From: a virus
IMG/VR virus record: IMGVR_UViG_3300038825_000861
Span: 1 to 23,957 of that record
DNA length: 23,957 bases
Strand: one strand, 5' to 3'
Shown: one piece after another, positions 3,712-22,281 of the stretch
Position numbering within the stretch: position 1 is the first letter of the stretch
Layout of the letters: each line of letters opens with the position of its first letter
Program-made: the position numbers and the translations under genes
The notes under the pieces: generated by a model
What the model was told of the DNA's origin: nothing
Databases searched by the model: none
Seen by the model: only the letters and a program-made list of their open reading frames with translations

Positions 3712-3891
3712 CTCCTCTAGCCGTGCGACAATCTTAGGGTTCTCCATTTTCGATTCAGCAAAATAACGAACACTCTTTGCCGTGGTCTTAGCTGACACAT
3801 TATAAGCCCTGCGGTATGCCTCATCAGCGTTTTTAGTCCTCATATACGCTTGGCAAAATGCTTCTTGTTTTGCGGTCAAAGTTTTTTTCAT
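3553..3891 (-). CDS. Terminase small subunit-like HTH protein (N-terminal domain only)
   Basis: 112 residues. Residues 4-62 ('LTAKQEAFCQAYMRTKNADE', 'AYRRAYNVSAKTTAK', 'NPKIVARLEELE') are a clear Terminase_2 (PF03592) N-terminal HTH, which recognises packaging sites. The usual central oligomerisation region is absent; the rest is a low-complexity tail antisense to the endolysin. A second protein at 16201 carries what looks like the missing half. It is the last gene of a leftward early operon (ATGA overlap with the LexA-like gene), an odd place for a packaging protein, so a regulatory role is also possible. Confidence 0.75.
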   Translation of the reverse strand: MKKTLTAKQEAFCQAYMRTKNADEAYRRAYNVSAKTTAKSVRYFAESKMENPKIVARLEELEKEQSSLILAADDKPLEDAAPGSTPLWELICRPFKIIARKFHFQSGSGEGS

Positions 3892-4130
3892 AACTCATGC
3901 CCTTTCATTTCAACAGGCACCACCAAAACGCTGCGCGGTTTTCCGTGTTCGCGTGTGATGTGGCCGCGATCCGCCAAGTCATTCATCATTCGCACAATGT
4001 TTGATTTGCATGTGCCTTGAATTGAAGCCAACTCAGCTACGCTGGGCGAGTAGCCATGCGCTTGTATAAATTCGTCAATCGCCATGCGGAGCGACATCTG
4101 TTTCGGCGTGATGCCCATTGGTACACTCAT
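3888..4130 (-). CDS. LexA-like winged-helix DNA-binding protein
   Basis: 80 residues. 'ITPKQMSLRMAIDEFIQAHG', 'YSPSVAELA', 'SNIVRMMNDLADRGHI' and 'KPRSVLV' follow the LexA N-terminal DNA-binding domain in order. The C-terminal S24 self-cleavage domain is absent, so it cannot self-cleave like LexA. It probably regulates phage transcription. It is ATGA-coupled to the genes on both sides. Its DNA target is unknown; it is one of three small DNA-binding proteins that could read the GTTTAAAC palindromes. Confidence 0.75.
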   Translation of the reverse strand: MSVPMGITPKQMSLRMAIDEFIQAHGYSPSVAELASIQGTCKSNIVRMMNDLADRGHITREHGKPRSVLVVPVEMKGHEL

Positions 4131-4933
4131 TTAATTGCTCCTAGCTGCGCGTTTAAACGTATGCGTTCGTCGTACAGAGTCTTTGCTGCGGCCTCTGGCA
4201 ACAGGTCCATGGTCGGTTCATTGTGTTCCTCGAAACGGTGCATGGCCGAAATTCTTTCCTCTGGACTTAGCTGCACATCACCCTTCATCCGTTCTAGCTG
4301 GCTCTTAAAAGCCTCGACAAACTCCAGGCTTGAACCAAATTCTGCGGTGTTCTTGCCATCTGGTGAGATCATAGTAAGAACATCGTCTGTATTGCTCTCA
4401 GATGCCCCAGGAGAAGCATCTGCCTTTTCTGGACCCTTGGCCCCAGGCGCATCAGTGTCGGCCTTCTGACCACCGTTTCCGGGGAAGGCAGCATCCAAAT
4501 CCTTACCAGATGGTTTAGCCTTGCGACTCTTTGGCCGCGAAGGTGGTTCATTGAGTTCGTTTCCGTCATCGTCCGTTTGCGCTAACCCAACCATAGCACA
4601 CACGCCGAATCTTCTAGCGTAAGAAATTGCACTGCCGGTGGCTTGCATTTTGTTCTTGGCGTTTTCGATACCGTCCAACGGCACACCCTGATCACAAATC
4701 CATTGACCAGATTTGTGGATCAGCGTGGTCCGTAGCTTGTTATCATGCACGCCTTGAATGATGCCAATGTCGTGGGCGTTCAGTGCTTGGTGTGCTTGCT
4801 TATTGCATTCCTGAAGTGATGCGTACATCGAGCCATGGAACGAGTTTTTAGAATCTTTGTGTGGGTTTGTCATATTTGCCTGGGCGGCTACGAACGCCGC
4901 GCCAAACTTATCAAGCTGTTCTGATTGGTTCAT
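4127..4933 (-). CDS. erf: ERF-family single-strand annealing protein
   Basis: 268 residues. The N-terminal 130 residues match the ERF family (PF04404): 'KNSFHGSMYASLQE', then 'GSAISYARRFGVCAMVGLAQ' followed by the acidic TDDDGNE. It anneals complementary strands during phage recombination and genome circularisation, working with the exonuclease at 5441. Residues 130-180 are a Pro/Lys/Gly-rich linker; the C-terminal part is charged and helical. The stop and start overlap neighbouring genes by ATGA. A GTTTAAAC site near the 3' end encodes 'RLN'. Confidence 0.9.
   Translation of the reverse strand: MNQSEQLDKFGAAFVAAQANMTNPHKDSKNSFHGSMYASLQECNKQAHQALNAHDIGIIQGVHDNKLRTTLIHKSGQWICDQGVPLDGIENAKNKMQATGSAISYARRFGVCAMVGLAQTDDDGNELNEPPSRPKSRKAKPSGKDLDAAFPGNGGQKADTDAPGAKGPEKADASPGASESNTDDVLTMISPDGKNTAEFGSSLEFVEAFKSQLERMKGDVQLSPEERISAMHRFEEHNEPTMDLLPEAAAKTLYDERIRLNAQLGAIK
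4151..4158. repeat. GTTTAAAC site 2
   Basis: Near the 3' end of erf, full CGTTTAAACG; read as Arg-Leu-Asn on the minus strand. Confidence 0.9.
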
Positions 4934-5148
4934 GTTGTCACCTTATGGAATGGGATTACGTTGTTGGATGCTTCGTATGCTGCACAGGTGCGTTTAAACG
5001 GCACGGCAGTCAGGTAAATGTTTTGCCGCTCTGCCGATTCGATGCACTTGTGGGATAGTTCAACGAGGCTATCAGGGAACAACTCAGGCCGGGATAGCAC
5101 CCGGCCCGCGTTGCGTAACTCACGCTTGATTGCTGTGCGATTGCTCAT
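4930..5148 (-). CDS. Small unknown protein between erf and a wHTH gene
   Basis: 72 residues, charged and mostly helical ('LVELSHKCIESAERQNIYLT'), with no recognised motif. Both ends overlap neighbours by ATGA, which makes translation convincing. Context suggests an accessory role in recombination or its control. A GTTTAAAC site falls in 'PFKR', read in a different frame from that used in erf. Confidence 0.7.
   Translation of the reverse strand: MSNRTAIKRELRNAGRVLSRPELFPDSLVELSHKCIESAERQNIYLTAVPFKRTCAAYEASNNVIPFHKVTT
4992..4999. repeat. GTTTAAAC site 3
   Basis: In the 72-residue gene, full CGTTTAAACG; read as (Pro)-Phe-Lys-Arg, a different frame from site 2. Confidence 0.9.
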
Positions 5149-5444
5149 CGCGCCACCATGACGCGTTGGTTCCGACCACTGCGCCCCTTGCGTTTGCCGT
5201 CAATGTTCACCAGCCCCTTGTCGATGAGCGCTTTGAACCGTGCCGTCACGCTGCTATAGGCCAGATCAGGCAACCGGCTTTGCACTTCATCGCTGATGCA
5301 GCCCGTGGTACCGAATGAGCGAATCGTATCAAACACCAATTTCTCCAGCTTCGTGCTGTCGATACTGTCCGCTGCTTCAAATGACGTTGGCGGGCTTTCG
5401 CGGCGCACCAACTTGTAGGGTTCCGTTCCAAAGAGATCGTTCAT
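5145..5444 (-). CDS. Winged-helix DNA-binding protein
   Basis: 99 residues. The segment 'FGTTGCISDEVQSRLPDLAY', 'SSVTARFKALIDKGLVNID', 'KRKGRSGRNQRVM' is a winged-helix fold: recognition helix around SVTARFKAL, basic wing GRSGR. Small phage proteins with the 'SSVTARFKAL' and 'RSGRxQRVM' pattern are common in early operons. It lies between exonuclease and annealing protein genes, so it could regulate the operon or organise DNA ends. It is coupled to both neighbours by ATGA overlaps. Confidence 0.75.
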   Translation of the reverse strand: MNDLFGTEPYKLVRRESPPTSFEAADSIDSTKLEKLVFDTIRSFGTTGCISDEVQSRLPDLAYSSVTARFKALIDKGLVNIDGKRKGRSGRNQRVMVAR

Positions 5445-6394
5445 GCGCCTTCTCCTTCCGGTTCAATAAGCTGGAACCGTCTGCCTGTGCGTGCGGGTTC
5501 CGCTTTCTTGACAGTGGTGCGTTCCGGCTTCGCCTTGTATTCCACAGTCGAGTGGAAGACTTTTATACCACCGGGTAGCAGCACCTTTTCCACGCCACCC
5601 ATGGCAGCTTTCAGCCGCATCTTGCATGACTCTTCAATAGACGCGGTGGATTCCTTTGTGTGATTGCACGCAACCAACGTTTCCGCTGCGTCGATCATGT
5701 CTTGGCGAGCGTCATTCATAATCAGTTCAGACGGCCCGTCAGTCAGGTCATGGATGCCCGGCTTGCGGTTGCCAGGGATCATGCTCGAATACTCGCTTTG
5801 TGTGATCGGCGGGTAGTTGGTGCCGTCTTCCATGTGCTGCCAGAAGACATTGACCGCTTCACGAATCGCCATGATGGTTGGTTCGTGTCGATGCACAATT
5901 GCGATTCGCCACTTACAATCGCTCTGTGCCAGTTCCGCAATCACACCAATGTCAGCGTCCGCGCAATCCAGTTGGGCTTGCACTTGGATGACACGCTCCA
6001 GGCTATCCGTAGGATCACCAGGAAAACGTGGCAGCTTCAATTCCCAGACTGATCCTTTGGGTATCGGTAGGTTTTCATACTCCCAATCGTCTTTGAAAAA
6101 CCCGTCGAGTGAGGCAACCAGATTGCAATGTTCGTTGCGGTATCCAGTTTTCGGGTGGTCTAACTCTACGACAAATTCATCTTGAAACCACTGCCGCGCT
6201 CCATCCTCGAAATAGTTTCCCCGCTTCATTATAGGCGTGGCTTTGTTCGTGTCTTCGCCATCGCGTGCGGCTCTGTGCCGGGCGAGCATGTCGTTGGGTG
6301 TGAGTTTAAACGGCGTTAGATACTCGCCGTTGATGGGTGTGATGATGGGCGCATCTGACGCGCCAGACTCCTGGCCGGTGATGCTATGCTTCAT
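5441..6394 (-). CDS. YqaJ/lambda-type phage exonuclease (PD-(D/E)XK)
   Basis: 317 residues from ATG 6394, chosen because it overlaps (ATGA) the stop of a small membrane ORF that has its own strong SD; an in-frame GTG at 6424 has none. The PD-(D/E)XK core is visible: 'GNYFEDGARQWF' (Glu63), 'ASLDGFF' (Asp97), 'WELKLP' (Glu118-x-Lys120), then 'IQVQAQLDC' (Gln137-Gln141). It resects DNA to 3' single strands for the ERF protein, a Red-like pair. The C-terminus (about 260-317) is basic. One GTTTAAAC site encodes 'PFKL' near the N-terminus. Confidence 0.88.
   Translation of the reverse strand: MKHSITGQESGASDAPIITPINGEYLTPFKLTPNDMLARHRAARDGEDTNKATPIMKRGNYFEDGARQWFQDEFVVELDHPKTGYRNEHCNLVASLDGFFKDDWEYENLPIPKGSVWELKLPRFPGDPTDSLERVIQVQAQLDCADADIGVIAELAQSDCKWRIAIVHRHEPTIMAIREAVNVFWQHMEDGTNYPPITQSEYSSMIPGNRKPGIHDLTDGPSELIMNDARQDMIDAAETLVACNHTKESTASIEESCKMRLKAAMGGVEKVLLPGGIKVFHSTVEYKAKPERTTVKKAEPARTGRRFQLIEPEGEGA
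6304..6311. repeat. GTTTAAAC site 4
   Basis: In the exonuclease gene, flanked a..g; read as Pro-Phe-Lys-Leu. Confidence 0.9.
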
Positions 6395-6486
6395 AGCACC
6401 AGCCCCCACAGGGACATCACCCACATGCTGCCAAACAGTAGTAGGACCGTGAGAAATTCGGCGGCGTAAGTAAGGTATTTTTTCAA
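6391..6486 (-). CDS. 31-residue membrane peptide upstream of the exonuclease
   Basis: A TTG start at 6486-6484 has a near-ideal AGGAGTG (complement of 6493-6499). The product begins with a basic MKKYL, followed by one long hydrophobic stretch ('FLTVLLLFGSMWVMSLWGLV') and a stop that overlaps the exonuclease ATG. It is below usual annotation length. Signal-anchor topology with N-terminus in is likely. It may be a toxin-like, superinfection-exclusion or regulatory peptide, or simply a coupling leader; nothing in it decides. Confidence 0.6.
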   Translation of the reverse strand: MKKYLTYAAEFLTVLLLFGSMWVMSLWGLVL

Positions 6487-6579
6487 CGTCTTCACTCCTT
6501 TTCTATTTATATTTTGTTTGTTGTTCTCTATTTCTGGCATCAACAACGTTCATAACAAGATCGTTTAGCGAATACAACA

Positions 6580-7431
6580 CTACTTTTTCGCCTGTGCAAT
6601 AATCCGCTTCACCTGTTCAGCGCTCCATTGCGGCAAATCTTCCTCGCGGATGTCCTCTAGCTTCTGCCGCTGTCGTTGCGCTTGATAGGTCAACACTGCC
6701 CGGCCTTCACCATGAAGACCGTTGCGGTTATTGAGTTCGCGGGCCAACGCACGCAATCCCGTAACCCCTTTTTTCTGTAGCTTTTCGATAATCGGGTAGG
6801 TCCGCAGGGCAAAGGCGCGGGTGTTACGCTTCATTGCTTCACCGCCGAGCGGTGACGCCTTCTCTACGTTGGGGTTGCCCAGGCGTATAATGCGCCGTGA
6901 AGGCTTATCCTTCTTAGGCCGGGTGTCGTAGTACCCTTTTTCCTGAAGGTCGGTCTTGGCGACGTTTAAACGGTCTTTGGTGTGCGCTTGAATGCGCTTC
7001 ACTTCTAGCTCCGCAACCGCCGCCATGATGCGCCAGATAAATTGTGTCTGATTCGGGTCCGACATTTCGGGAATGTCGCACGCGACTAGCTTAGTGCCGT
7101 CGCGTTCCGTTCTCCGCATGATGTAGCTCATCACGTCGAAGTTACGCGTTAGGCGTGTCAAGGCGCTGACGATCACAACGCCGGGCGGATCACACTTCGC
7201 TGCTGCATCCAAGGCGGCGATAAGCTGCGGCCTTTCGGGCTTGGTTCCCGATTCGACTTCCTTAAATATTTCGATCAGTTCCAGCCCAAGTTCTTCTGCC
7301 TTGGCGCGGATGGTTGCGTTCTGTGCCCGGATGCCAAGGCCATCAATGCCCTGTTCTTCCGTACTCACACGCGCAAGGCCGAATGCTTTTTCTGGTGGTC
7401 CGCTGCTGCGGGTTCGCTTCCGTTTAGCCAT
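6580..7431 (-). CDS. Serine recombinase (resolvase/invertase family)
   Basis: 283 residues from ATG 7431. The N-terminal catalytic domain has 'ARVSTEEQGIDGLGIRAQ' (nucleophile Ser23), 'SGTKPERPQL', 'LTRLTRN' (Arg93, Arg96) and 'AAVAELEVKRIQAHTKDRL'. After a Lys-rich linker, residues 215-283 ('TGLRALARELNNRNGLHG', 'WSAEQVKRII') resemble the Recombinase DNA-binding region. It is much shorter than large serine integrases, so it could be an integrase-like recombinase, a resolvase or an inverter. No crossover site was found beside it. GTTTAAAC encodes its 'DRLNVAK'. The start shares TGATG with the upstream stop. Confidence 0.87.
   Translation of the reverse strand: MAKRKRTRSSGPPEKAFGLARVSTEEQGIDGLGIRAQNATIRAKAEELGLELIEIFKEVESGTKPERPQLIAALDAAAKCDPPGVVIVSALTRLTRNFDVMSYIMRRTERDGTKLVACDIPEMSDPNQTQFIWRIMAAVAELEVKRIQAHTKDRLNVAKTDLQEKGYYDTRPKKDKPSRRIIRLGNPNVEKASPLGGEAMKRNTRAFALRTYPIIEKLQKKGVTGLRALARELNNRNGLHGEGRAVLTYQAQRQRQKLEDIREEDLPQWSAEQVKRIIAQAKK
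6964..6971. repeat. GTTTAAAC site 5
   Basis: In the serine recombinase gene, full CGTTTAAACG; read as Arg-Leu-Asn. Confidence 0.9.
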
Positions 7432-7441
7432 CACTCCCCCC
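7429..7441 (-). repeat. Coupled junction GGGGGGAGTGATG, copy 1
   Basis: One 13-base block supplies SD, stop (TGA) and start (ATG) between the 62-residue gene and the recombinase. Identical blocks occur at 7617-7629 and 7784-7796. Confidence 0.75.
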
Positions 7442-7619
7442 CCTTGGTTTCTTGGTCTGACAAAGCATCTGCCAGAGCCATCAACTCGGATCGCGTAAGC
7501 CGCATCAAATTCGGCAACGAGTGAGTGCTGTCCTTCGTTAGATCACGGACTAGCTCTCTGACATCGTCAGCCCAGTATTGTTTTTCACCAGACGTTTGCC
7601 AGTGGCTTCCCCTACGCAT
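7431..7619 (-). CDS. Small unknown protein upstream of the recombinase
   Basis: 62 residues from ATG 7619 (the GTG one codon earlier is less likely). It is charged; residues 18-56 are helical with 'LMRLTRSELMALADALS'. No family recognised. It starts and stops in nearly identical TGATG junctions preceded by GGGGGGAG, shared with the two genes upstream, so this block of four genes is translated as a coupled string. Confidence 0.65.
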   Translation of the reverse strand: MRRGSHWQTSGEKQYWADDVRELVRDLTKDSTHSLPNLMRLTRSELMALADALSDQETKGGE

Positions 7620-7629
7620 CACTCCCCCC
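7617..7629 (-). repeat. Coupled junction GGGGGGAGTGATG, copy 2
   Basis: Junction between the 55- and 62-residue genes. Upstream codons end in Gly-Glu as in the other copies. Confidence 0.75.
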
Positions 7630-7786
7630 TAGCGGCACGGTCAAGGTGCTTACAAAGCACTTGGACTTCTTTAAGCCGCTGCTCCATGCTTTCGATGTAG
7701 ACAATCGCTTGTCGGATGATCGGTTTGATTTTTTGGTATTCAGGATCAGATCGTATTTCGATCAGTTGTGCTTTTGTATCAGGCAT
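7619..7786 (-). CDS. 55-residue helical protein
   Basis: Complete frame from ATG 7786 to TGA 7619-7621, too short for many gene callers. The product starts MPDTKAQLIEIRSDPEYQK and continues as one amphipathic helix rich in Gln, Glu and Lys, ending 'HLDRAARGE'. A GGGGGGAG SD and TGATG overlaps at both ends support translation. The spacer between the neighbouring genes is exactly filled by it. Function unknown; a short coiled-coil adaptor is plausible. Confidence 0.65.
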   Translation of the reverse strand: MPDTKAQLIEIRSDPEYQKIKPIIRQAIVYIESMEQRLKEVQVLCKHLDRAARGE

Positions 7787-7796
7787 CACTCCCCCC
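7784..7796 (-). repeat. Coupled junction GGGGGGAGTGATG, copy 3
   Basis: Junction between the HTPGPW-family gene and the 55-residue gene. Confidence 0.75.
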
Positions 7797-8118
7797 TCGC
7801 TTTGGCGATTGCGGCTTGGATTTCGGAGTCCATTTCATCCAAAATTTTTAACGCCCAGCCGATGTCATTACGATTCCCGGTCTTAATTCGGCGAATTAAC
7901 TTGTCCCGCTTACGGTCAAATAATTCTAACGCCGCCAACAAATCAGGCGCGGCGGCTATCAACCGTTGATTTGCATAGCCTTCGTCAAGAGGATTTTTAC
8001 TGTAAATATGAGCGATGCCGCCACGCCCCTGCGCGAGCAGTTCTTTACTTGGTTCAATAGCTGCCGTTTGGTTGTCGGTATTGAATTTAACAACCCACGG
8101 TCCCGGTGTATGTGTCAT
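7786..8118 (-). CDS. Conserved phage protein, HTPGPW family
   Basis: 110 residues. The N-terminus 'MTHTPGPWVVKF' and central 'GYANQRLIAAAPDLLAALE' are hallmarks of a family found in hundreds of phages and prophages, function unknown. The C-terminal half adds a charged helix pair ('IGWALKILDEMDSEIQAAIA'). The start lies in a 27-base repeat also present at the gene starting at 8724, and the upstream mini-ORF stops on its ATG. Confidence 0.82.
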   Translation of the reverse strand: MTHTPGPWVVKFNTDNQTAAIEPSKELLAQGRGGIAHIYSKNPLDEGYANQRLIAAAPDLLAALELFDRKRDKLIRRIKTGNRNDIGWALKILDEMDSEIQAAIAKARGE

Positions 8119-8139
8119 AACTGACTCCCTTGCTTCATT
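8113..8139 (-). repeat. 27-base gene-start repeat, copy 1
   Basis: Holds SD GGGAGTCAG, ATGACA start and the upstream mini-frame MKQGSQL-stop. 26 of 27 bases match copy 2 at 8719-8745. Confidence 0.8.
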
Positions 8140-8168
8140 GCTTCCGTTTCGCTAAACAGAGCCATCAT
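8115..8168 (-). CDS. Possible 17-residue leader peptide
   Basis: ATG 8168 follows GGAGTCAG and reads MMALFSETEAMKQGSQL, stopping on the ATGA of the HTPGPW gene. The last seven codons (MKQGSQL) lie in the 27-base repeat and are mirrored as MKQRSQL before the gene at 8724. It may be only a translational-coupling leader. There is no independent evidence that the peptide itself works. Confidence 0.3.
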   Translation of the reverse strand: MMALFSETEAMKQGSQL

Positions 8169-8201
8169 TGCTGACTCCAATTAGCACATGGTGATACAAG
8201 C

Positions 8202-8233
8202 GGCGGGCCGGGGCGTGCATTCCCTGGCCCGCC
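8202..8233. other. Strong GC hairpin after the gene at 8241
   Basis: GGCGGGCC pairs with GGCCCGCC and the stem extends by GGGG/CCCT to 12 pairs with an 8-base loop. No U-run follows on either strand, so it is not a standard terminator. It may protect the 3' end of the message or act as a processing site. Confidence 0.6.
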
Positions 8234-8240
8234 ATTTGTT

Positions 8241-8468
8241 TTAGTCGATGCGCTTTGCGTCCGCGCCGTTGCAGCCGTTGCCGTCCTGCGTGTGCGCGTT
8301 AACCTCGCCGTTCGTTTCTGTATCAACAACGAATCCAATGGCACCCTTCCATAGTGGCATGGTGCGGATGGCATCGACGGCGGTTTGAGCGTGAACAATT
8401 TCACACGTCTCGCGGTGCGGTGTGACGTTTAAACAGTACGTCTTAAGTTCGTATTTATTCATCGCCAT
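8241..8468 (-). CDS. Small unknown phage protein
   Basis: 75 residues. 'YELKTYCLNVTPHRETCEIV' and 'AVDAIRTMPLWKGAIGFVVD' suggest a small alpha/beta fold. GGGGAGGA lies 8 bases before ATG 8468; ATG 8462 is an alternative. It follows the gene at 8473 by four bases, so the two are likely co-translated. No family recognised. It ends just before a strong GC hairpin (8202-8233). GTTTAAAC encodes 'CLN'. Confidence 0.7.
   Translation of the reverse strand: MAMNKYELKTYCLNVTPHRETCEIVHAQTAVDAIRTMPLWKGAIGFVVDTETNGEVNAHTQDGNGCNGADAKRID
8427..8434. repeat. GTTTAAAC site 6
   Basis: In the gene at 8241, flanked c..a; read as Cys-Leu-Asn. Confidence 0.9.
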
Positions 8469-8472
8469 TGTT

Positions 8473-8724
8473 TCAATCCTCCCCGTCGAGTCGCTGGACC
8501 GCGTGGTATAGCTTCCATTTCAAGGTCATCAACTCGCGGAAATCCGACATATACATATCGCCTTCCATGCTTTCCATTGAGTTCAGTGGTTCCAATGCCA
8601 TATCCGCAATCCGACGAATAAATTCTTCCGCGTTGATTTCTTCTCTATGCGCCCACGGCAGCATGATTTCCTTCTTTGTTGCGGGCTTGCGTTTCTTGGT
8701 GGTAGGCTTCTTTGCTTTTGTCAT
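8473..8724 (-). CDS. Small Lys-rich unknown protein
   Basis: 83 residues. The N-terminus (1-18) is strongly basic (KAKKPTTKKRKPATKK); the remainder is acidic and helical, with Met-rich 'LEPLNSMESMEGDMYMSDF'. The basic tail could bind nucleic acid; the body is unrecognised. AGGAG lies before ATG 8724, within the 27-base repeated start module. A leftward terminator (8780-8806) just upstream separates it from the gene at 8819. Confidence 0.7.
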   Translation of the reverse strand: MTKAKKPTTKKRKPATKKEIMLPWAHREEINAEEFIRRIADMALEPLNSMESMEGDMYMSDFRELMTLKWKLYHAVQRLDGED

Positions 8725-8745
8725 AACTGACTCCTTTGCTTCATT
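8719..8745 (-). repeat. 27-base gene-start repeat, copy 2
   Basis: Same module as 8113-8139 with AGGAGTCAG and mini-frame MKQRSQL-stop ending in the ATGA of the next gene. Confidence 0.8.
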
Positions 8746-8779
8746 TCTACATCTTCACCCAACCAGATGACGGCTGGCG

Positions 8780-8806
8780 AAAAAGCCCGGACGCGAGTCC
8801 AGGCTT
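8780..8806 (-). terminator. Rho-independent terminator after the gene at 8819
   Basis: Read leftward: AAGCC-U-GGAC, loop UCGC, GUCC-G-GGCUU (10 pairs, one U-G), running into five U residues. It lies 13 bases after the stop at 8819 and before the gene starting at 8724, splitting the small-gene region into at least two transcripts. Confidence 0.72.
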
Positions 8807-8818
8807 GATCGTCAACCG

Positions 8819-9133
8819 TCACGCGGCGGCGGTATTCAAATCTTCCCACGCCCACGACCAATAAAAGCATTCATCAAAGCATAAGCCCGGCCCGCTCACG
8901 ACGGCCCGCTGGTTACGCTTTGCCGCGAAGTCGGCCATGTGCTTGTCTAGCCATTCTTGGGCCGCTGCGGCATGGTTCGCGTCAATGTTCAATCCGTAAT
9001 CCCATTGCGTGATTAGTCGTCTAGTCGGTCCGCCCATCACGCTCGAATCTGTTACGCTCACACGCCCGCCGCGATAGTTGGTCGGGCCTAGGTATTTGGT
9101 GCGGATCGAAGCCCGCGTGTCGATGTGTTTCAT
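8819..9133 (-). CDS. Conserved phage protein (KYLGPTNYRGGR family)
   Basis: 104 residues from ATG 9133, chosen over an upstream in-frame ATG at 9250 because GGAGTCAG sits 3 bases before it and homologues begin 'MKHIDTRASIRTKYLGPTNY'. The order 'GPTNYRGGRVSVTD', 'TQWDYGLNIDANHAAAAQEW' matches a small protein widespread in phages of Proteobacteria, function unknown. It is followed by a Rho-independent terminator on the same strand. Confidence 0.78.
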   Translation of the reverse strand: MKHIDTRASIRTKYLGPTNYRGGRVSVTDSSVMGGPTRRLITQWDYGLNIDANHAAAAQEWLDKHMADFAAKRNQRAVVSGPGLCFDECFYWSWAWEDLNTAAA

Positions 9134-9177
9134 TGTCTGACTCCATGTTACACCACCCGTGCCGGTGGCACCCGAAA

Positions 9178-9204
9178 CGGCCCGCCACGCAATGCGCCGG
9201 GCCG
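9178..9204. other. GC hairpin in the spacer before the gene at 9133
   Basis: CGGCCC pairs with GGGCCG over a 15-base loop that contains further GC symmetry. It sits between a GTTTAAAC site (9226) and the GGAGTCAG module of the gene at 9133, the same order of parts as in spacer C at 10632-10687. Confidence 0.55.
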
Positions 9205-9225
9205 AATGGGCGATAGACTCGCGAT

Positions 9226-9233
9226 GTTTAAAC
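9226..9233. repeat. GTTTAAAC site 7
   Basis: Intergenic, upstream of the gene at 9133. Part of CGCGATGTTTAAACGC, shared exactly with site 8. Confidence 0.9.
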
Positions 9234-9266
9234 GCGGTTAGTATTTCCAATCAGGACCAATTCGGC

Positions 9267-9791
9267 TCAGTAGATTTCCTGAAGTAATTGGTCCCCAACG
9301 GCTTCGGGCATGTCGTCATGCCGTGCCGCAAAAACTGAGACCCAAACGTCTTGGCAATACTGGACGCGCTCACCAGTTCCCATGTGGAGCCAATGTTCCG
9401 TCACGGCTTCCCACTGCTTTTCGGAATAGGCGTCTTCGTCATAGACAGGATAGTCGGCCAGGGCTGAAACGATCTCCGCTGACGCGATCAGAACGTCGTC
9501 TGGCGCTTCGGGTTTCACCATCAGGTATTCGACCCAACCACATGCCCAGTGACGCGCCCGGAAATCGTAAACGGTGTCTTCAATCTCTTGATTGTAGGGA
9601 TAGGGATAGCCGGACTGCTTGAGGTCTTCGAGGATGCGGCTATAGTTCACGTCTTCGAGGATGCTGCTATCTCGCGTTCTAGTGGTGATGACGTACTCTC
9701 CAACCGGGTTATGCCCGGCGTAATCGGATGGCCGGGTCCAGGCGGTTTCGGCCAGGATTTCTTTTGCTCGCTCTATGCGCATGGTGGTCAT
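9267..9791 (-). CDS. Conserved phage protein of unknown function
   Basis: 174 residues, acidic and Tyr/Trp-rich. 'YDFRARHWACGWVEYLMV', 'ADYPVYDEDAYSEKQWEA', 'ERVQYCQDVWVSVFAARHDD' and 'MPEAVGDQL' recur in a phage family seen in small-gene regions. No catalytic motif is evident. The start has AAAGGAACA upstream and ATG 9791; Met4 is an alternative. It lies between two hairpin-bearing spacers. Confidence 0.75.
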   Translation of the reverse strand: MTTMRIERAKEILAETAWTRPSDYAGHNPVGEYVITTRTRDSSILEDVNYSRILEDLKQSGYPYPYNQEIEDTVYDFRARHWACGWVEYLMVKPEAPDDVLIASAEIVSALADYPVYDEDAYSEKQWEAVTEHWLHMGTGERVQYCQDVWVSVFAARHDDMPEAVGDQLLQEIY

Positions 9792-9840
9792 TTCGTTTGT
9801 TCCTTTCGTCTGCGACTTTCCGCTCTAACGGGTTGGGCGA

Positions 9841-10035
9841 TCAAGATCCGCCATATCCAACAGCCTCATTTAATGCTGATGCTAGAGAGATGCGATCAGT
9901 CACTTTGATTTTATTTATGTCACTAACAAGGTCTTGGTCATCTTCACGCCGAAATTTTTCAGCATCAGCTTTTCTTTCGAAATAAACCGCACCAGTGCCA
10001 TCGTGATCATTTCGTATGTATTGCCAGACAATCAT
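9841..10035 (-). CDS. Small unknown protein
   Basis: 64 residues from ATG 10035; an earlier in-frame ATG at 10071 lacks an SD, whereas AGGAGAGAGGAAA stands 5-17 bases before 10035. 'MIVWQYIRNDHDGTGAVYFE' and 'DQDLVSDINKIKVTDRISL' suggest a small beta-alpha protein. No family recognised. It is preceded by hairpin module A (10073-10119). Confidence 0.65.
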   Translation of the reverse strand: MIVWQYIRNDHDGTGAVYFERKADAEKFRREDDQDLVSDINKIKVTDRISLASALNEAVGYGGS

Positions 10036-10072
10036 CTTAGCTTTCCTCTCTCCTAAAGTTTGCAGCAGCAAA

Positions 10073-10119
10073 GCCCCGCGCTGGTGGTCGGGGCAATGCG
10101 GCGCTAGTGCGCGATGGGG
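10073..10119 (-). repeat. Intergenic stem-loop module, copy A
   Basis: Stem GCCCCG/CGGGGC (10073-10078, 10089-10094) next to the palindromic GCGCTAGTGCGC (10101-10112) and GATGGGG. In leftward order it is: stop, GCGC motif, hairpin, SD, next gene. TTT follows the hairpin leftward, so weak termination is possible. Confidence 0.75.
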
Positions 10120-10125
10120 ATTAAG

Positions 10126-10329
10126 CTAGATAATTTCGTAGGCGTGTGGTTCGACCTCACAGATGACGCCCTTCTTTAAAAGTGAGCTAACGCACCCCTC
10201 AATTTGTTTTTCAGAAAGGTCTGAATGATTAGAAATCATATAGGTGTCGGCGCAGTAGCAAGTTTCTTTGAGTGCCTTTGTAAGCGCGTCGAGTGTTTTT
10301 TGTTCCTTGGGTGTAATTACGTTTGTCAT
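10126..10329 (-). CDS. Small HTH-like unknown protein
   Basis: 67 residues. 'KEQKTLDALTKALKETCYC', 'SNHSDLSEKQIEGCVSSLL' and 'KKGVICEVEPHAYEII' read like a short winged helix (helix, helix, recognition helix, wing), with Cys residues near the first helix. DNA binding is a guess. AAGGAGAGAGAAA precedes the ATG, nearly the same initiation module as the next gene upstream. It ends at hairpin module A and starts after module B. Confidence 0.65.
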   Translation of the reverse strand: MTNVITPKEQKTLDALTKALKETCYCADTYMISNHSDLSEKQIEGCVSSLLKKGVICEVEPHAYEII

Positions 10330-10359
10330 TTTCTCTCTCCTTAATTACCTACGCCGTGA

Positions 10360-10407
10360 CCCCGGCCACCTTGCGGCTCCGGGGCTGGGCGCTAGTGCGC
10401 GATGGGG
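10360..10407 (-). repeat. Intergenic stem-loop module, copy B
   Basis: Stem CCCCGG/CCGGGG (10360-10365, 10379-10384) with GCGCTAGTGCGC at 10389-10400 followed by GATGGGG. The GCGCTAGTGCGCGATGGGG block is identical to copy A although the hairpin loop differs. It lies between the genes at 10416-10601 and 10126-10329. Confidence 0.75.
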
Positions 10408-10415
10408 TTCCCGTG

Positions 10416-10601
10416 TCAAACATCTCTTAGCTCAACGGTAAAAACTCCGTAGGCATCGTCGTTGTAAATATCCGCATCTTTCACAGCCAACCGCTTTGCG
10501 CAATTTACGTCACCACCTGCATATGAGAGGTACACTGACGCATGGATAAACTCGTCGCCGTTCTCATCGATGACTGCCCAGCTTTGTTTTACATTTGTCA
10601 T
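10416..10601 (-). CDS. Small unknown protein
   Basis: 61 residues from ATG 10601 with AGGAGCGAGAAA upstream; an in-frame ATG at 10661 lies inside hairpin module C and is unlikely. 'VKQSWAVIDENGDEFIHASV' and 'VFTVELRDV' suggest a small beta-sheet protein. No family recognised. Its N-terminal MTNV codons repeat those of the gene at 10329, part of a duplicated start module. Confidence 0.65.
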   Translation of the reverse strand: MTNVKQSWAVIDENGDEFIHASVYLSYAGGDVNCAKRLAVKDADIYNDDAYGVFTVELRDV

Positions 10602-10631
10602 TTTCTCGCTCCTAAAAGTTCCTACCCCGAA

Positions 10632-10680
10632 GGCCCCGCCATCCTTTCGGACCGGGGCCAAGGGGCGCTGCTGCGCGATG
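10632..10680 (-). repeat. Intergenic stem-loop module, copy C
   Basis: Stem GGCCCCG/CGGGGCC (10632-10638, 10653-10659) with the variant GCGCTGCTGCGC (10665-10676), then GATG running directly into GTTTAAAC (10680). It lies between the SprT-like gene and the gene at 10601. Confidence 0.75.
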
Positions 10681-10687
10681 TTTAAAC
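10680..10687. repeat. GTTTAAAC site 8
   Basis: Intergenic, 3 bases beyond the SprT-like stop, fused to stem-loop module C. Confidence 0.9.
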
Positions 10688-10690
10688 GCT

Positions 10691-11275
10691 TTATCCGATA
10701 GTCATCATGCTACCGCAGCCGCACGTCGGGATTCCCGCATCACCTATCGCGGTCCGTGATCCGCGTAGGATGCACCCGCATTGATCGTCCAGGCATACGA
10801 TCTTAATCATGCGCGTGGTCTGTTTCTTGCGGTCCTGCAAATTGATTTTCGCGTGGGGGTACGGGCCAAGCGCTTGCGATATCTTTTCAAGCTTCACGGT
10901 CAATTCAGGGCCGCTTGTGGTAGCGGTCATTTTGCCTTCAAGGCCAATGGCGAGCGCCATGGTGCGGAACGGACCACGGTGTCCGTTCTCGCAATCGTCA
11001 ATGGCGTGGATCATCTCATGTGCGACGATGCCCAGCACTTCCAGCGGATCGTCTTCCGCCGGACTGATGAACATTTCGCGTGTCGCGTCATCAGATGAAC
11101 CGGACGGCCAGCATTCGCCAATGCGCTTACGAGCGCTGCCGCCGCCCGGCCATGAACAGGCAATGCGCCAGGAAGCGTTTAAACGGTCTATGCCGGCGGG
11201 TTCAAATACGTCGGCATTCAGCATGTTGACGGCGGCGGTCAACCATTCGTCGCGGGTTGCATATGTGTTTGTCAT
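10691..11275 (-). CDS. SprT-like zinc metallopeptidase domain protein
   Basis: 194 residues from ATG 11275, which overlaps the upstream stop (TAATG); the longer frame to 11443 is not needed. The active site is 'VAHEMIHAIDDCENGHRGPF': His86, Glu87, His90 and third ligand His99. A C-terminal zinc ribbon is formed by Cys161, Cys166/168 and Cys185/187. 'IGLEGKMTATT' is typical of phage SprT-like proteins. SprT/Spartan proteins cleave DNA-bound proteins; here it may process host or phage DNA-protein complexes. GTTTAAAC encodes 'DRLNA'. Confidence 0.83.
   Translation of the reverse strand: MTNTYATRDEWLTAAVNMLNADVFEPAGIDRLNASWRIACSWPGGGSARKRIGECWPSGSSDDATREMFISPAEDDPLEVLGIVAHEMIHAIDDCENGHRGPFRTMALAIGLEGKMTATTSGPELTVKLEKISQALGPYPHAKINLQDRKKQTTRMIKIVCLDDQCGCILRGSRTAIGDAGIPTCGCGSMMTIG
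11177..11184. repeat. GTTTAAAC site 9
   Basis: In the SprT-like gene, full CGTTTAAACG; read as Arg-Leu-Asn. Confidence 0.9.
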
Positions 11276-11547
11276 TAGTCGCACCCCACACAAAGCATGA
11301 ACATGAAGAAAAGCATCATTGTGGATGAAACCAGCCACAGGATGGCATGGCTCATTGCATCGAAGATGAAACCGCCCATAACGAAAGGCGCGACGGTCAG
11401 ACCGCAGAATAGCAGCGTGGTGACGATGTACGCCGCCAAGCACAAGTCGCGATCAGCGCCTTGTAATGCGCGTCTGGCGTGAGGGTGAATGGGTGCGGGA
11501 CGTTTGGTGCCGCGTAGCCGCTCAAGGCTTCGTGATGTGTAGCTCAT
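11275..11547 (-). CDS. Small two-TM membrane protein
   Basis: 90 residues from ATG 11547 with AGGAGTCAG upstream; homology of this initiation module with that of the gene at 12009 supports the start. A basic N-terminus (1-32) is followed by two membrane segments (about 36-60 and 64-88, 'ILWLVSSTMMLFFMFMLC'). A positive-inside rule suggests both ends in the cytoplasm. It may modify the host envelope, for example in superinfection exclusion. That is inference from its early position. Confidence 0.65.
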   Translation of the reverse strand: MSYTSRSLERLRGTKRPAPIHPHARRALQGADRDLCLAAYIVTTLLFCGLTVAPFVMGGFIFDAMSHAILWLVSSTMMLFFMFMLCVGCD

Positions 11548-11563
11548 TAGACTGACTCCTGTT
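11543..11563 (-). repeat. 21-base gene-start repeat, copy 1
   Basis: Contains AGGAGTCAGTCTAATGAG, the SD and start of the membrane protein gene. Identical over 21 bases to 12005-12025. The following codons (MSYT) also match. Confidence 0.8.
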
Positions 11564-11580
11564 AAGTGCATTCAGCCGAA

Positions 11581-11620
11581 ATGCCGGGCGGATAATCCCC
11601 GGCATCCGGCGCTAGTGCGC
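11581..11620 (-). repeat. Intergenic stem-loop module, copy D
   Basis: Stem ATGCCGGG/CCCGGCAT (8 bp) with GCGCTAGTGCGC at 11609-11620; the GATGGGG part is replaced by AATTG. It lies between the gene at 11634 and the membrane protein gene at 11547. Confidence 0.75.
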
Positions 11621-11633
11621 AATTGTGTTTGGG

Positions 11634-11801
11634 CTAGCAAGGCTTTAGGGCTTGCCGTTTTTCTTCCAGCTTGTGAGCTAATTTATCCAATTTAGGAAAA
11701 TCGTTTGGATCGAGATGTTTATGATGAAATGCCCAACAAAGCTCATCTAAAACATCAAGTGCGTTATCATCAAAAACCCCGCTTTGATTTGTGTTAATCA
11801 T
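11634..11801 (-). CDS. 55-residue unknown protein
   Basis: Start ATG 11801 follows AGGGGGGAGAGAAA directly; a longer frame to 11927 overlaps the upstream gene. Product MINTNQSGVFDDNALDVLDE, then 'LCWAFHHKHLDPNDFPKLDK' and a Lys/Glu-rich helix ending in LKPC. Mostly helical and acidic. No family recognised. It is followed by hairpin module D (11581-11620). Confidence 0.6.
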   Translation of the reverse strand: MINTNQSGVFDDNALDVLDELCWAFHHKHLDPNDFPKLDKLAHKLEEKRQALKPC

Positions 11802-11814
11802 TTTCTCTCCCCCC

Positions 11815-12009
11815 TTAAAAACGAGACTCACACACCGACTTGCGTAACTTAGCCTTACCAAAGGCTTGTTCAGCCGACATGCGCTGTTCCATTGCGCCGT
11901 TGCAATATGTAGCGGTGCCGTCGCCATGTATTGTGACCTCGGCTACGATGACCGAACGTCCGTCCTCAAACGTGCGGTATGTGTATGTTTTTTCCTTGGT
12001 GTAACTCAT
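11815..12009 (-). CDS. Small beta-rich unknown protein, first gene of the leftward operon
   Basis: 64 residues. 'YTYRTFEDGRSVIVAEVTIH' and 'GDGTATYCNGAMEQRMSAEQ' suggest a compact beta sheet with a terminal helix ('AEQAFGKAKLRKS'). AGGAGTCAG precedes ATG 12009. It is the promoter-proximal leftward gene, facing the replication operon across a 113-base control region, so it is likely expressed first. Function unknown. Confidence 0.68.
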   Translation of the reverse strand: MSYTKEKTYTYRTFEDGRSVIVAEVTIHGDGTATYCNGAMEQRMSAEQAFGKAKLRKSVCESRF

Positions 12010-12025
12010 TAGACTGACTCCTGTT
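12005..12025 (-). repeat. 21-base gene-start repeat, copy 2
   Basis: Identical to 11543-11563; drives initiation of the first leftward gene at 12009. Confidence 0.8.
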
Positions 12026-12037
12026 GTGTGTGCATTT

Positions 12038-12054
12038 AGATCGTAAAATGATCT
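12038..12054. repeat. Inverted repeat AGATC-N7-GATCT
   Basis: AGATC and GATCT flank GTAAAAT, centred 30-odd bases upstream of the leftward start. The size and symmetry fit a dimeric repressor operator. It is only 5 bp per arm, so it could be chance. Confidence 0.4.
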
Positions 12055-12066
12055 CGTATGCTTGTT

Positions 12067-12093
12067 TTGACATATGTGGTATCAAGTGTCAAT
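12067..12093. promoter_or_regulatory. Mirrored TTGACA boxes (inverted repeat) in the divergent region
   Basis: TTGACA at 12067-12072 and its reverse complement TGTCAA at 12088-12093 give consensus -35 boxes on both strands, facing past each other with a 15-base gap. They could be back-to-back, mutually exclusive promoters, or an operator. Matching -10 boxes are weak on both sides. Confidence 0.5.
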
Positions 12094-12122
12094 AGGCTAA
12101 ATGATTTGGTTGAGTCAGTTAT

Positions 12123-13115
12123 ATGACAGATGAACCCGTGATAGGTGCCGCACAAGGCGGGCCGCCTTCATTATATACACGCATCCCAACGCGAGTGATT
12201 TGGGAGAGCAAGGGAACGCGTGGTAAGGGGAAAGGATTCACGCCGGGTGAATTGCGCCAGTTCGCTATGTTGTGCGCTTATGCGAATAACCAGGGATTCG
12301 CGTATCCGAACCAGCAAACAATAGCTGACGTGGCGAACACAGATCGTGGGTGCGTGCAACGTATGATCTCGAAGGCAAAACGCCTTGGCTATATAGAGAG
12401 AGTGTCAGTCTATAGAGATCACCCGGCATGGCGTCATGTTATGGGAGCCGTATGGCGCATCATATATGACAGCCGATTGACGCAGGATGATTTGATCGAC
12501 GATCTTAACAAGAATGATCCGGTCCCTATTATAGAAGACGATCTGCCCGCGCCGGAAATCACGGCGGGCCAGGACTCTAGTAAGCACGGGATGGAAGGGG
12601 ATGGGTTGTCACTAGTTGATGCTCATTCATTAGCGCATTGGTATGTGCATCAAGTGACCGCCACAACAGGCGAGGTCCGCATAGTAAATGAGCGCGCCAT
12701 CGATGACGCCAGCCAATGCCTGGACATTGAAGGCAGCAAAGCGGCAGCGATAGCGGCCCTATCAGAATGCCGCAAGGCTAAATGGTCAAATGGATTTGTG
12801 ACAGATGATAAAAAAGATCAGCAATTACAATGGCTTGACCCACCCTTTGCCCCCCCGGCCCCGCCGGCCATGTATAGGGGGTCTCACAAAAATATTTCGG
12901 AGTTTTTCATGCTAACCGCCGCAACCCGCGCAATCAAAGCGCTTCCAGAGAGCCAGCGACTACCCGTTGCAATAGCCCTTCTCGTTCACTTTGCGGGCCT
13001 TACAGCACGCATGGACAAGCTTATCAGCGCTGGATATGCGCGAAAGCAACCTGATCGTGAGGAGTTCGACATAGCCGAATTGATACGAGCCACAGCGGAG
13101 GAGTGTAATGACTAG
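12123..13115 (+). CDS. HTH replication-initiator-like protein
   Basis: 330 residues. Residues 40-95 ('FTPGELRQFAMLCAYANNQG', 'FAYPNQQTIADVANTDRGCV', 'QRMISKAKRLGYIERV') form a winged helix-turn-helix of the HTH_36 type used by phage and plasmid replication initiators. A Pro-rich linker (about 240-252) leads to a helical C-terminal part. As first gene rightward of the divergent region, followed by RusA, DUF1376 and helicase-loader-like genes, an origin-binding or regulatory role is likely. ATG 12123 has only GAGTCAG upstream. No origin iterons were recognised. Confidence 0.75.
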   Translation: MTDEPVIGAAQGGPPSLYTRIPTRVIWESKGTRGKGKGFTPGELRQFAMLCAYANNQGFAYPNQQTIADVANTDRGCVQRMISKAKRLGYIERVSVYRDHPAWRHVMGAVWRIIYDSRLTQDDLIDDLNKNDPVPIIEDDLPAPEITAGQDSSKHGMEGDGLSLVDAHSLAHWYVHQVTATTGEVRIVNERAIDDASQCLDIEGSKAAAIAALSECRKAKWSNGFVTDDKKDQQLQWLDPPFAPPAPPAMYRGSHKNISEFFMLTAATRAIKALPESQRLPVAIALLVHFAGLTARMDKLISAGYARKQPDREEFDIAELIRATAEECND

Positions 13116-21393: not shown

Positions 21394-22207
21394 AGAAAAC
21401 GCTGAGGTAAGCGAAACTGCGGAAGCAGCACCAGAGCCAGAAGCGGGCCTGTTAGACAACGTTGAAACACCTAATCCCGATGCCGCTGAAGCGGCAGAAG
21501 ACGATGAGATAGATCACCGTGAACCGGGCGGCGATGGAGAAAAGCCGGAATGGTTGCCGGATAGATTTTGGGATTCAGATAGCGGCGAAGCCGATTACGA
21601 GGGCTTGGCGAAAAGCCAACAGGAACTTTATAAGAAACTCCGCAACGGAAAGCATCAAGTGCCGGAAGGCGGCGAGTATGATATACGTTTTGTTAATGAG
21701 AGAATTGCAGATGACGATGAACTTCTGGGTAAGTTCAAAGAGGTCGCTGCCGACAGAGGGTTGTCGCAAGACGATTTTGAAAAGATTGTTGGGCTGGTTA
21801 TGGAAACGATGCCGGAAGATGTGGGAGAACCGGAACAGAAGTTTGACCGCGAAGCAGAGTTTGCAAAGCTAGGCCCGAATGGTGAGAACATCGTCAACGG
21901 TGTAGTCAAGTGGGCAGAGGGGCTTGTGAACAACGGAGCTTGGACCGCAGAGGATTTTGACGAATTTAAATTTATGGGCGGCACGGCTTCCGGCATTCGT
22001 GCGCTAAACCGGTTGCGCCAATACTACGGCGAGAAAACTATTCCCGTTGATGCAACGCCTGATTCAGAAGCGATGCCGACAGAAGAAGAATTGCAAGCCA
22101 TGGTCGCTGATCCGCAATACAACAAAGACCCATCGTTCCGGCGCAAGGTTGCAGACCAGTTTGTCAAAAAATATGGCTCGGACCCTAACAGTCCGCAAAT
22201 TATGTAA
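21386..22207 (+). CDS. Capsid scaffolding protein
   Basis: 273 residues from ATG 21386 (GTG 21371 is an in-frame alternative). Highly acidic, low-complexity N-terminus rich in Glu/Ala; 'GEKPEWLPDRFWD' and 'YEGLAKSQQELYKKLRNGKH' are typical of podovirus scaffolds; the rest is helical, with 'FRRKVADQFVKKYG' as a basic C-terminal helix that would bind capsid subunits. It directs prohead assembly and then leaves. A strong terminator follows (22242-22267). Confidence 0.82.
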   Translation: MAEENAEVSETAEAAPEPEAGLLDNVETPNPDAAEAAEDDEIDHREPGGDGEKPEWLPDRFWDSDSGEADYEGLAKSQQELYKKLRNGKHQVPEGGEYDIRFVNERIADDDELLGKFKEVAADRGLSQDDFEKIVGLVMETMPEDVGEPEQKFDREAEFAKLGPNGENIVNGVVKWAEGLVNNGAWTAEDFDEFKFMGGTASGIRALNRLRQYYGEKTIPVDATPDSEAMPTEEELQAMVADPQYNKDPSFRRKVADQFVKKYGSDPNSPQIM

Positions 22208-22241
22208 CTACCTCCCTGTACGTTAACCTCCTAGACTCTCC

Positions 22242-22267
22242 CCCCCGCTACGGCGGGGGTTTTTTTG
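22242..22267 (+). terminator. Rho-independent terminator after the scaffold gene
   Basis: A perfect 7-bp stem, CCCCCGC paired with GCGGGGG, closes a TACG (UNCG-class) tetraloop and is followed by a run of eight T residues (22260-22266 plus adjacent). It ends transcription from the packaging/head genes before the capsid gene. The capsid therefore needs its own promoter, which is seen at 23019-23048. Confidence 0.9.
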
Positions 22268-22281
22268 TCTATAAGCTAAAT
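22245..22281 (+). repeat. Direct repeat copy 1 (terminator plus GTCTATAAGCTAAAT)
   Basis: 37 bases covering the terminator stem, U-tract and GTCTATAAGCTAAAT. They match 34 of 37 positions in copy 2 at 22967-23003. The identity beyond the U-tract indicates duplication of the same DNA and not two independent hairpins. The copies bracket a leftward gene. Confidence 0.85.

Follow-up and report, generated by a model that had tools for sequence, protein, structure and literature searches.

Abutting hairpins in the spacers of a phage small-gene block keep their layout and pairing while neighbouring genes change

Results

Accessory genes and hairpin spacers of the window

The stretch of DNA analysed here, called the window, comprises all 23,957 bases of an IMG/VR virus record, and the 56% identity of its portal protein to the portal of Methylophilales phage MEP301 makes it a MEP301-like phage. 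Its leftward block of small genes, from about 12.0 to 7.4 kb, holds four spacers (A to D) for which an earlier sequence-only reading had described a common leftward layout; all four lie on the minus strand as described, and we add a fifth, E. Spacers of this layout are called cassettes below, with P1 and P2 as their first and second hairpins; SD denotes the Shine-Dalgarno site. The features needed for the argument are the following:

11548-11633, minus strand: cassette A spacer; P1 11609-11620 (GCGC-ACTA-GCGC), P2 about 11575-11608, SD AGGAG 11556-11560
10602-10690, minus strand: cassette B spacer; P1 10665-10676 (GCGC-AGCA-GCGC), P2 about 10625-10664 with a GAAA loop, SD 10609-10613
10330-10415, minus strand: cassette C spacer; P1 10389-10400 (GCGC-ACTA-GCGC), P2 about 10353-10388 with a GCAA loop, SD 10337-10341
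10036-10125, minus strand: cassette D spacer; P1 10101-10112 (GCGC-ACTA-GCGC), P2 about 10066-10100, SD 10050-10054
9134-9266, minus strand: cassette E spacer; P1 9210-9222 (GCGA-GTCTA-TCGC), P2 about 9171-9209, SD 9141-9144, additional hairpin at 9153-9168
8725-8818, minus strand: S2, a spacer with a hairpin that looks terminator-like by eye, kept in four related phages with changed neighbours
8119-8240, minus strand: S1, a hairpin spacer of another type, stem near 8202-8233
11275-11547, minus strand: accessory gene (90 aa) downstream of cassette A; in the relative G012 preceded by a different member, X
10691-11275, minus strand: accessory gene of unknown function (PHROG 6361), no Pfam match
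10416-10601, minus strand: accessory gene (61 aa) between cassettes B and C
10126-10329, minus strand: accessory gene (67 aa) between cassettes C and D, without DNA match in the relatives G011-G013
9841-10035, minus strand: accessory gene (64 aa) downstream of cassette D, without DNA match in G011-G013
6580-7434: serine resolvase gene
5441-6424, minus strand: RecE-like exonuclease, candidate partner of Erf
4127-4933, minus strand: Erf-like single-strand annealing protein that may drive the exchange at the cassettes

A HEMIH motif suggests, in our own reading, that the product of the 10691-11275 gene is a metallopeptidase. Each cassette consists, in order, of the upstream stop codon, about 14 nt, the 4-bp mini-hairpin P1, the GC-rich hairpin P2, which contains an internal loop, abuts P1 with no linker and has a short run of 1-4 T behind it, an open leader that bears an SD of the AGGAG type (read by eye, for example, as TTTAGGAGAGAG or GGAGTCAG) and the next gene. 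The P1 sequence GCGCACTAGCGC occurs exactly three times in the window (10101, 10389 and 11609), and its variant GCGCAGCAGCGC once (10665). Three occurrences of the exact 12-mer compare with 0.0046 expected under a first-order Markov model. When two mismatches are allowed, the five occurrences in the window (2.6 expected) are not beyond chance, 16 of 100 shuffles reaching five. The real signal is the entire repeated and covarying layout rather than the motif alone. Spacer E, whose hairpin, at 9178, the sequence-only reading had also thought related, truly belongs to the family: held out of covariance model R1, it was matched at 20.4 bits (E=0.0018), and its P1 is altered to GCGA/TCGC, a compensated change. 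The covariance models of Rfam 15 matched none of the window cassettes up to E=5.

Copies in other viral contigs

Searching other phages with a covariance model, as that reading had proposed, did recover copies in other viral contigs. Pattern scans of viral contigs, two protein searches and the covariance searches together yield at least 28 copies in at least 16 distinct viral contigs from a group of uncultured phages: five in the window, four in L119 (the same contig as G013), two each in L004, L165, L172, G011 and G012, and one each in L005, L006, L008, L010, L041, L042, L174, L176 and L286. Four further contigs (L007, L043, L044 and L177) repeat or overlap counted ones and stand outside the 16. 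The tally of 28 probably under-counts the family; copy X of G012 (24696-24787), which was recognised by eye, obtains a model score of only 13.5 bits (E=0.44). The contigs that bear cassettes belong to the window's own lineage and to phages with an integrase (Pfam PF00589 in L008 and L165) and a putative tRNA-Met-like attP (L005, L008 and L010); outside the cassette, the latter phages have little DNA in common with the window.

Of the best 80 of 85 loci encoding relatives of the 10691-11275 protein, taken with flanks of up to 4 kb, 77 are without a cassette, and the only three that carry one encode proteins of 88-95% identity. The named phages gave no near match to the window DNA. The L008 cassette and cassette D found no convincing match among 50,697 phage records, D giving only three short ones at E=0.8, and the covariance search gave no match in the parts of MEP301 and Hodr that were examined. 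Among the titles listed by our literature search of open-licence papers, none is on these linker elements.

Several candidates were set aside. In L009, L040 and the other loci of the pattern scan, apart from L119, L165 and the known members, the layout is missing; it was not seen by eye in the pattern candidates L078, L105, L289, L290 and L291. The sequence common to L079 and L109 (20.8 bits, E=0.048) shows P1 and a second hairpin together with an SD and a start codon; as a terminator-like hairpin stands directly before them, this borderline case was left out. Among bacterial genome contigs, 29 exact 17-mer matches were found, none with the full layout by eye; in L014 and L039 (Shimia) a hairpin does stand behind the match, but the stop codon lies inside P1. 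Covariance model R2 gave nothing at E<=0.01 in the genome of L014. At E<=0.001 it gave one match in 385 genomes of the class of L014 and two in 274 of that of L011, for about 0.7 expected altogether (E-values rough, at most the best 12 or 17 candidates per genome scored), and none of the R2 matches shown for these genomes has the layout by eye.

Pairing is kept while the stems change

The sequence-only reading held that the stem sequences change while the pairing is kept, and the 24 copies aligned to the model (A2) bear this out. Standard pairing is present in 86.0% of pair cells (75.8% after shuffling), both sides have changed in 9 of 13 pairs (5.2 after shuffling) and the covariation value is 0.242 (0.086 after shuffling); none of 500 shuffles reaches the observed pairing, double-change or covariation value, and all six slid controls are lower, in an alignment which, being fitted to the structure, is biased towards it. 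P1 is able to form in all 28 copies when G-U pairs are allowed, with the stem kinds GCGC/GCGC, GCGA/TCGC, GAGC/GCTC, GTGC/GCGC and GGGC/GCCC. Some of the copies had been located by means of the P1 sequence itself; the informative cases are therefore the ones reached in other ways, namely GCGA/TCGC (the E group and L172), GAGC/GCTC (L165) and GGGC/GCCC (X of G012). The predicted folds give P2 about 9-16 bp. Although the P2 region of spacer E in G011 is unlike that of the window and G013, a possible stem can be traced there by eye. The L005 cassette is a hybrid with a poorer P2. Two further pairings were considered by eye and dropped: a three-way junction of the upstream CCCC with the downstream GGGG, which fails in many of the 26 copies inspected, and a pairing between the P1 loop and the tail.

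Such an element could be a processing site, the P1-P2 stack being a target of RNase III or some other host RNase, whose cut would give separate, hairpin-ended mRNAs, much as cutting of the T7 early mRNAs by RNase III leaves separate mRNAs with end hairpins. The strictly intercistronic position, the paired stem with its internal loop and the SD right behind it agree with processing, which is the main rival of the explanation we favour below; the predicted P2, however, is short for a substrate of RNase III, and we regard processing as unlikely.

The abutting hairpins, and the AUC that stands just before P1 (A in 27, T in 28 and C in 24 of the 28 copies), might also be expected of a regulatory RNA which would bind a phage or host protein or a ligand, as a translational operator or antiterminator; the put RNA of HK022 is likewise two-stemmed. 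A specific binding site should hardly tolerate the variation seen in the loops of both P1 (nine kinds) and P2, and put sites are not known to be used as one copy per gene, the manner in which the cassettes are distributed, so that a regulatory RNA appears rather improbable.

Distances to the flanking codons

The distance from the upstream stop codon to P1 is 12-16 nt in 26 of the 28 copies, the outliers being 24 and 44 nt; the P2 end lies 21-32 nt from the start codon in 24 of 27 (median 24 nt), and the stop and start codons are 80-92 nt apart in 23 of 27, all codons having been set by script and the upstream frame of L006 being cut by the contig end. The outlier of 44 nt is window E, for which the relatives G011 and G013 have 15 nt; a TAA still stands 15 nt before its P1, as if the preceding gene had been replaced. 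The flanking genes fall into 21 unrelated groups upstream and 20 downstream (blastp E<=1e-3), which implies that the spacing was kept through many joinings. All 28 copies are in sense orientation between two genes. As a control, among the 109 pattern matches listed in non-member loci, only three (L079, L109 and L125, the first two being one sequence) have both a long ORF whose end lies 10-18 nt before P1 and, behind, a start codon led by an SD. Judged by the usual footprints of ribosomes, a structure at these distances would lie just clear of a terminating ribosome and immediately upstream of one that initiates.

Genes are exchanged at the cassettes

The relatives G011, G012 and G013 (the last a fragment of 11.7 kb) share most of the window backbone in blocks of 72-96% DNA identity. 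When the accessory block is compared with them, 46 of 66 spacer-by-relative cells are matched and 32 of 108 gene-by-relative cells, a match being at least half covered, the cells not being independent and the gene borders being our own. Four of the 46 spacer matches join one cassette to another (window B and C to the E spacer of G011; C to b of G013 and back), and 42 of 66 are left without them. The hairpin spacers thus outlast the neighbouring genes in close relatives, and the comparison of gene order suggested by the sequence-only reading comes out in its favour.

Individual exchanges can be followed. A cassette stands directly behind the 10691-11275 gene in the window and in all three relatives; it is of the A type in G011, G012 and G013 and is cassette B, not of the A type, in the window, where the A-type cassette precedes the 11275-11547 gene. 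Viral contigs contain two relatives of the 10416-10601 gene, at 87% and 53% protein identity, and in all three phages a cassette comes directly after the gene. Cassette D has no match in G011-G013 and is 91-96% identical over about 71-84 nt to sequences in the distant phages L005, L006, L010, L042, L043 and L044, which points to its import. L172 and L173 form a pair with 97.1% identity up to the event. L172 has an additional gene and an additional cassette (704 against 274 nt from the start of gene 1 to that of gene 3), and in L173 a fused remnant joins the beginning of one cassette to the leader of a second; because the flank behind gene 3 aligns poorly in a global alignment (78.1% identity, 286 gap positions in 1200 nt), near-identity is shown only upstream. 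L005 and L008 have 96% identical backbones on both sides and different genes beside the cassette. In L044 the cassette is followed directly by a gene from which, in L008, another gene separates it. The copies combine P1 loops and P2 types in many ways, so recombination seems to occur inside the cassettes too. The Erf/RecE pair of the window would be a plausible motor of the exchange.

These observations could be those of mere homology anchors, short repeats spread by favoured recombination with no RNA function: the mosaic of P1 and P2, the fused remnant of L173 and the near-identity of cassette D across distantly related phages would all follow. An anchor acting only as DNA would not, however, be expected to show compensatory changes, a fixed distance from stop codon to P1 and the same sense orientation between two genes in every copy, and we consider it quite improbable.

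The proximity of recombinase genes raises another possibility, that of sites of site-specific recombination carrying integron-like cassettes moved by a tyrosine or serine recombinase. The arrays adjoin the tyrosine integrase in L008 and L165 and, by sequence likeness, an integrase in L005 and L174, and the window has its serine resolvase gene. Integron attC sites carry a conserved recombination core of the GTTRRRY type at each site, whereas in the 30 nt before P1 only a C-rich stretch and the AUC are common, with no core present in all 28 copies. The absence of a shared core at a fixed place and the joining of unlike halves in L173 make this the least probable of the explanations considered here.

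Expression signals and folding

The consensus scans covered the five window cassettes. None of the three promoter-like sites found by the promoter consensus on the minus strand from 7700 to 12700 is at a cassette, nor is a cassette among the eight terminator-like sites found by a terminator consensus with loops of up to 8 nt. PeSL cassettes of T4-type phages are reportedly the subject of work by Arbiol in 2010 and Comeau in 2014. In the excerpts of two papers (PMC4503421, PMC3950731), T4 PeSLs combine a promoter with a stem-loop, and genes are shuffled there. The proposal that the spacers are an independent equivalent of the T4 cassettes that helps gene shuffling is upheld as a pattern, both being intergenic stem-loop modules of hypervariable small-gene regions with genes shuffled between kept cassettes. 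It does not hold as an exact equivalence, for the linkers described here have no early promoter or terminator stem-loop detectable by these scans, carry an SD leader and consist of two abutting hairpins. A terminator, attenuator or mini-promoter of the PeSL kind, to which the GC-rich hairpin and its T run might be ascribed, is therefore very improbable, the 24 nt that typically separate P2 from the start codon also speaking against it.

We also asked by folding whether the cassette insulates the SD (22 of the 28 copies, 8 contexts, 5 shuffles each). The mean cost of opening the SD is slightly lower with the native cassette, at 3.93 kcal/mol, as compared with 4.23 with shuffled (p=0.017), 4.44 with coding sequence (p=0.005) and 4.26 without the cassette (p=0.063). 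Sensitivity to the upstream context is not reduced in this test (variation of 1.10 against 1.03 for shuffled, p=0.37, and 0.96 for coding sequence, p=0.23). The result is mostly negative and leaves the simple version of insulation by folding unsupported. Furthermore, 4-nt overlaps make up 7 of the 19 junctions in the leftward block 3888-12009, so that expression as such does not require linkers.

Discussion

The explanation which we consider the probable one is that of a family of mobile, structured intercistronic linkers, in which a gap-filling role in the RNA is combined with that of an anchor for recombination. The common layout, the covariation, the fixed spacing, the spread among phages and the exchange of genes at the cassettes are the observations from which it proceeds. 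Each copy would lie between two co-directional genes of a presumed polycistronic phage mRNA, P1 starting about 14 nt past the stop codon, P1 and P2 standing back to back and some 24 nt of open leader bearing the SD. The linker would fill the ribosome-free gap between the terminating and the initiating ribosome, each cistron would be translated independently, and the junction would resist 3'-5' decay and Rho. As a compact and nearly identical element, it would in addition anchor homologous recombination by phage or host functions (for example Erf/RecE of the window), whereby units of a gene plus a cassette would be gained, lost or swapped. A role in the protection and separation of cistrons, which we propose with moderate confidence, is what remains since simple insulation by folding is unsupported and the junction hairpins of cellular operons offer a precedent. 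The hairpins may have been selected for shuffling, or the shuffling may be a by-product of a conserved RNA element. A more specific formulation, advanced tentatively, is that of a 'cistron linker' free of promoter and terminator and sized to the room between terminating and initiating ribosomes, with which phages would assemble their accessory genes into arrays and reshuffle them by plain homologous recombination.

Hairpins at such junctions have precedents. The T7 sites for RNase III are hairpins between the early genes, just before SDs, and resemble the linkers in both respects; we know of no mobility of the cassette kind for them. According to parts of PMC9239205, the E-hairpin of galE lies at a cistron junction, blocks 3'-5' decay and stabilises the upstream mRNA 3' end, and puf, cited there, has an intercistronic hairpin in a cellular operon. 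The linkers share this placement at the junction with the hairpins of cellular operons. To our knowledge, the latter are neither mobile nor members of a family. Repeats before start codons are also found in other viruses. In extracts of PMC3203893, the SAS/ESAS of Cluster K mycobacteriophages are repeats that directly precede the start codons of non-structural genes, an inverted repeat accompanying about half of them; its authors see little support for an mRNA hairpin, and the ESAS are mostly conserved per gene family with one exception. A later survey also touches on them (PMC12699233). In the linkers, by contrast, the pairs covary and the neighbours change, the 13-bp GGGATAGGAGCCC of the SAS was not found before the start codons (leaders read by eye), and two separate stems, one of 4 bp and one of about 9-16 bp, stand in place of the 17-bp imperfect inverted repeats upstream of the SAS. 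The haloarchaeal virus HGTV-1 has, in the section of PMC3950731 concerned, a repeated motif of a TATA box and an inverted repeat before many genes, for which gene shuffling was proposed; this motif bears a promoter and belongs to an archaeal virus, and its likeness to the linkers is the inverted repeat before genes. Gene shuffling at stem-loops was already known from the T4 PeSLs; what is new is the mobile two-hairpin linker without an Rfam family.

If the 'cistron linker' formulation is true, these phages would have an integron-like modularity with neither a dedicated recombinase nor a promoter. Far from T4, the cassettes show how unrelated genes can be slotted into one operon by way of an RNA linker placed at a set distance from the stop codon. 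Do they serve expression or shuffling? The question can now be put to the test, the linkers being short, their covarying pairs known and natural pairs (L172/L173 and L005/L008) available. The linkers can also serve to track down mobile accessory genes, and as a natural model for joining the parts of synthetic operons.

Another type of spacer in the same block behaves in a similar way. The hairpin at 8202, in S1, had also been thought related to the cassettes, but it is matched by neither R1 nor R2 and is not a recognisable homologue, so that only its behaviour is alike: the S1 spacer keeps 92-97% identity across four related phages, the genes flanking it differ on either side, and the downstream gene is another one in each of the four.

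Spacers and leaders

Beside the cassettes A-E, the intercistronic spacers formed by a mini-hairpin (P1), an abutting GC-rich hairpin (P2) and an open leader with its SD, the window holds two hairpin spacers of unlike sequence (8119-8240 and 8725-8818), which are conserved while the genes beside them change. They make a second and a third spacer type that behave like A-E.

The leaders of cassettes B, C and D read AGGAG(A/C)GAG, as in integrase-bearing phages, and are unlike the GGAGTCAG leaders found before several accessory genes of the window's lineage; this fits an import of the B-D block.

In five other viral contigs with one cassette each (L005, L008, L010, L042 and L176), the array's first gene comes with a promoter-like region of its own, and its 5' leader carries a different hairpin: GTGGTTGAGGGACCAC in the first three, a variant form in L042 and L176. 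In L005, L008 and L010, this region stands behind a tRNA-Met 3'-half, about 270-600 nt upstream of the cassette.

Two further viral contigs, L079 and L109, which are left out of the 28-copy family count, share an identical cassette-like sequence:

L079, near 1030, minus strand: cassette-like sequence
L109, near 9970: cassette-like sequence

A terminator-like hairpin is followed there by a P1-like mini-hairpin, a second hairpin, an SD and a 305-codon frame. The sequence would be either a distant member of the cassette family at an operon start or a chance likeness.

Other repeated and structured elements

The palindrome GTTTAAAC occurs 14 times in the window, versus 0.4 expected and 3 copies of the next most frequent 8-base palindrome; its one-mismatch neighbours number just 9.

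Sites of GTTTAAAC in the window
3500, 4151, 4992, 6304, 6964, 8427, 9226, 10680, 11177, 13262, 15495, 18252, 20561, 21070

Many copies lie inside genes, and two adjoin cassettes, one at B and one at E. The close relatives G011, G012 and G013 (an 11.7-kb fragment) carry 18, 17 and 9 copies, respectively, and the examined parts of phages MEP301 and Hodr carry none. In the window's lineage, the palindrome may be a protein site, whether of repressor/stoperator-like type or of another.

Near the right end, one region gives a weak match to the suhB/mmgR sRNA family (23.9 bits, E=0.45, under the gathering threshold of 41):

22203-22274, plus strand: the motif CCTCC twice, and a strong terminator-like hairpin

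G011 and G012 have this region too. It may encode a phage sRNA that contains anti-SD stretches.
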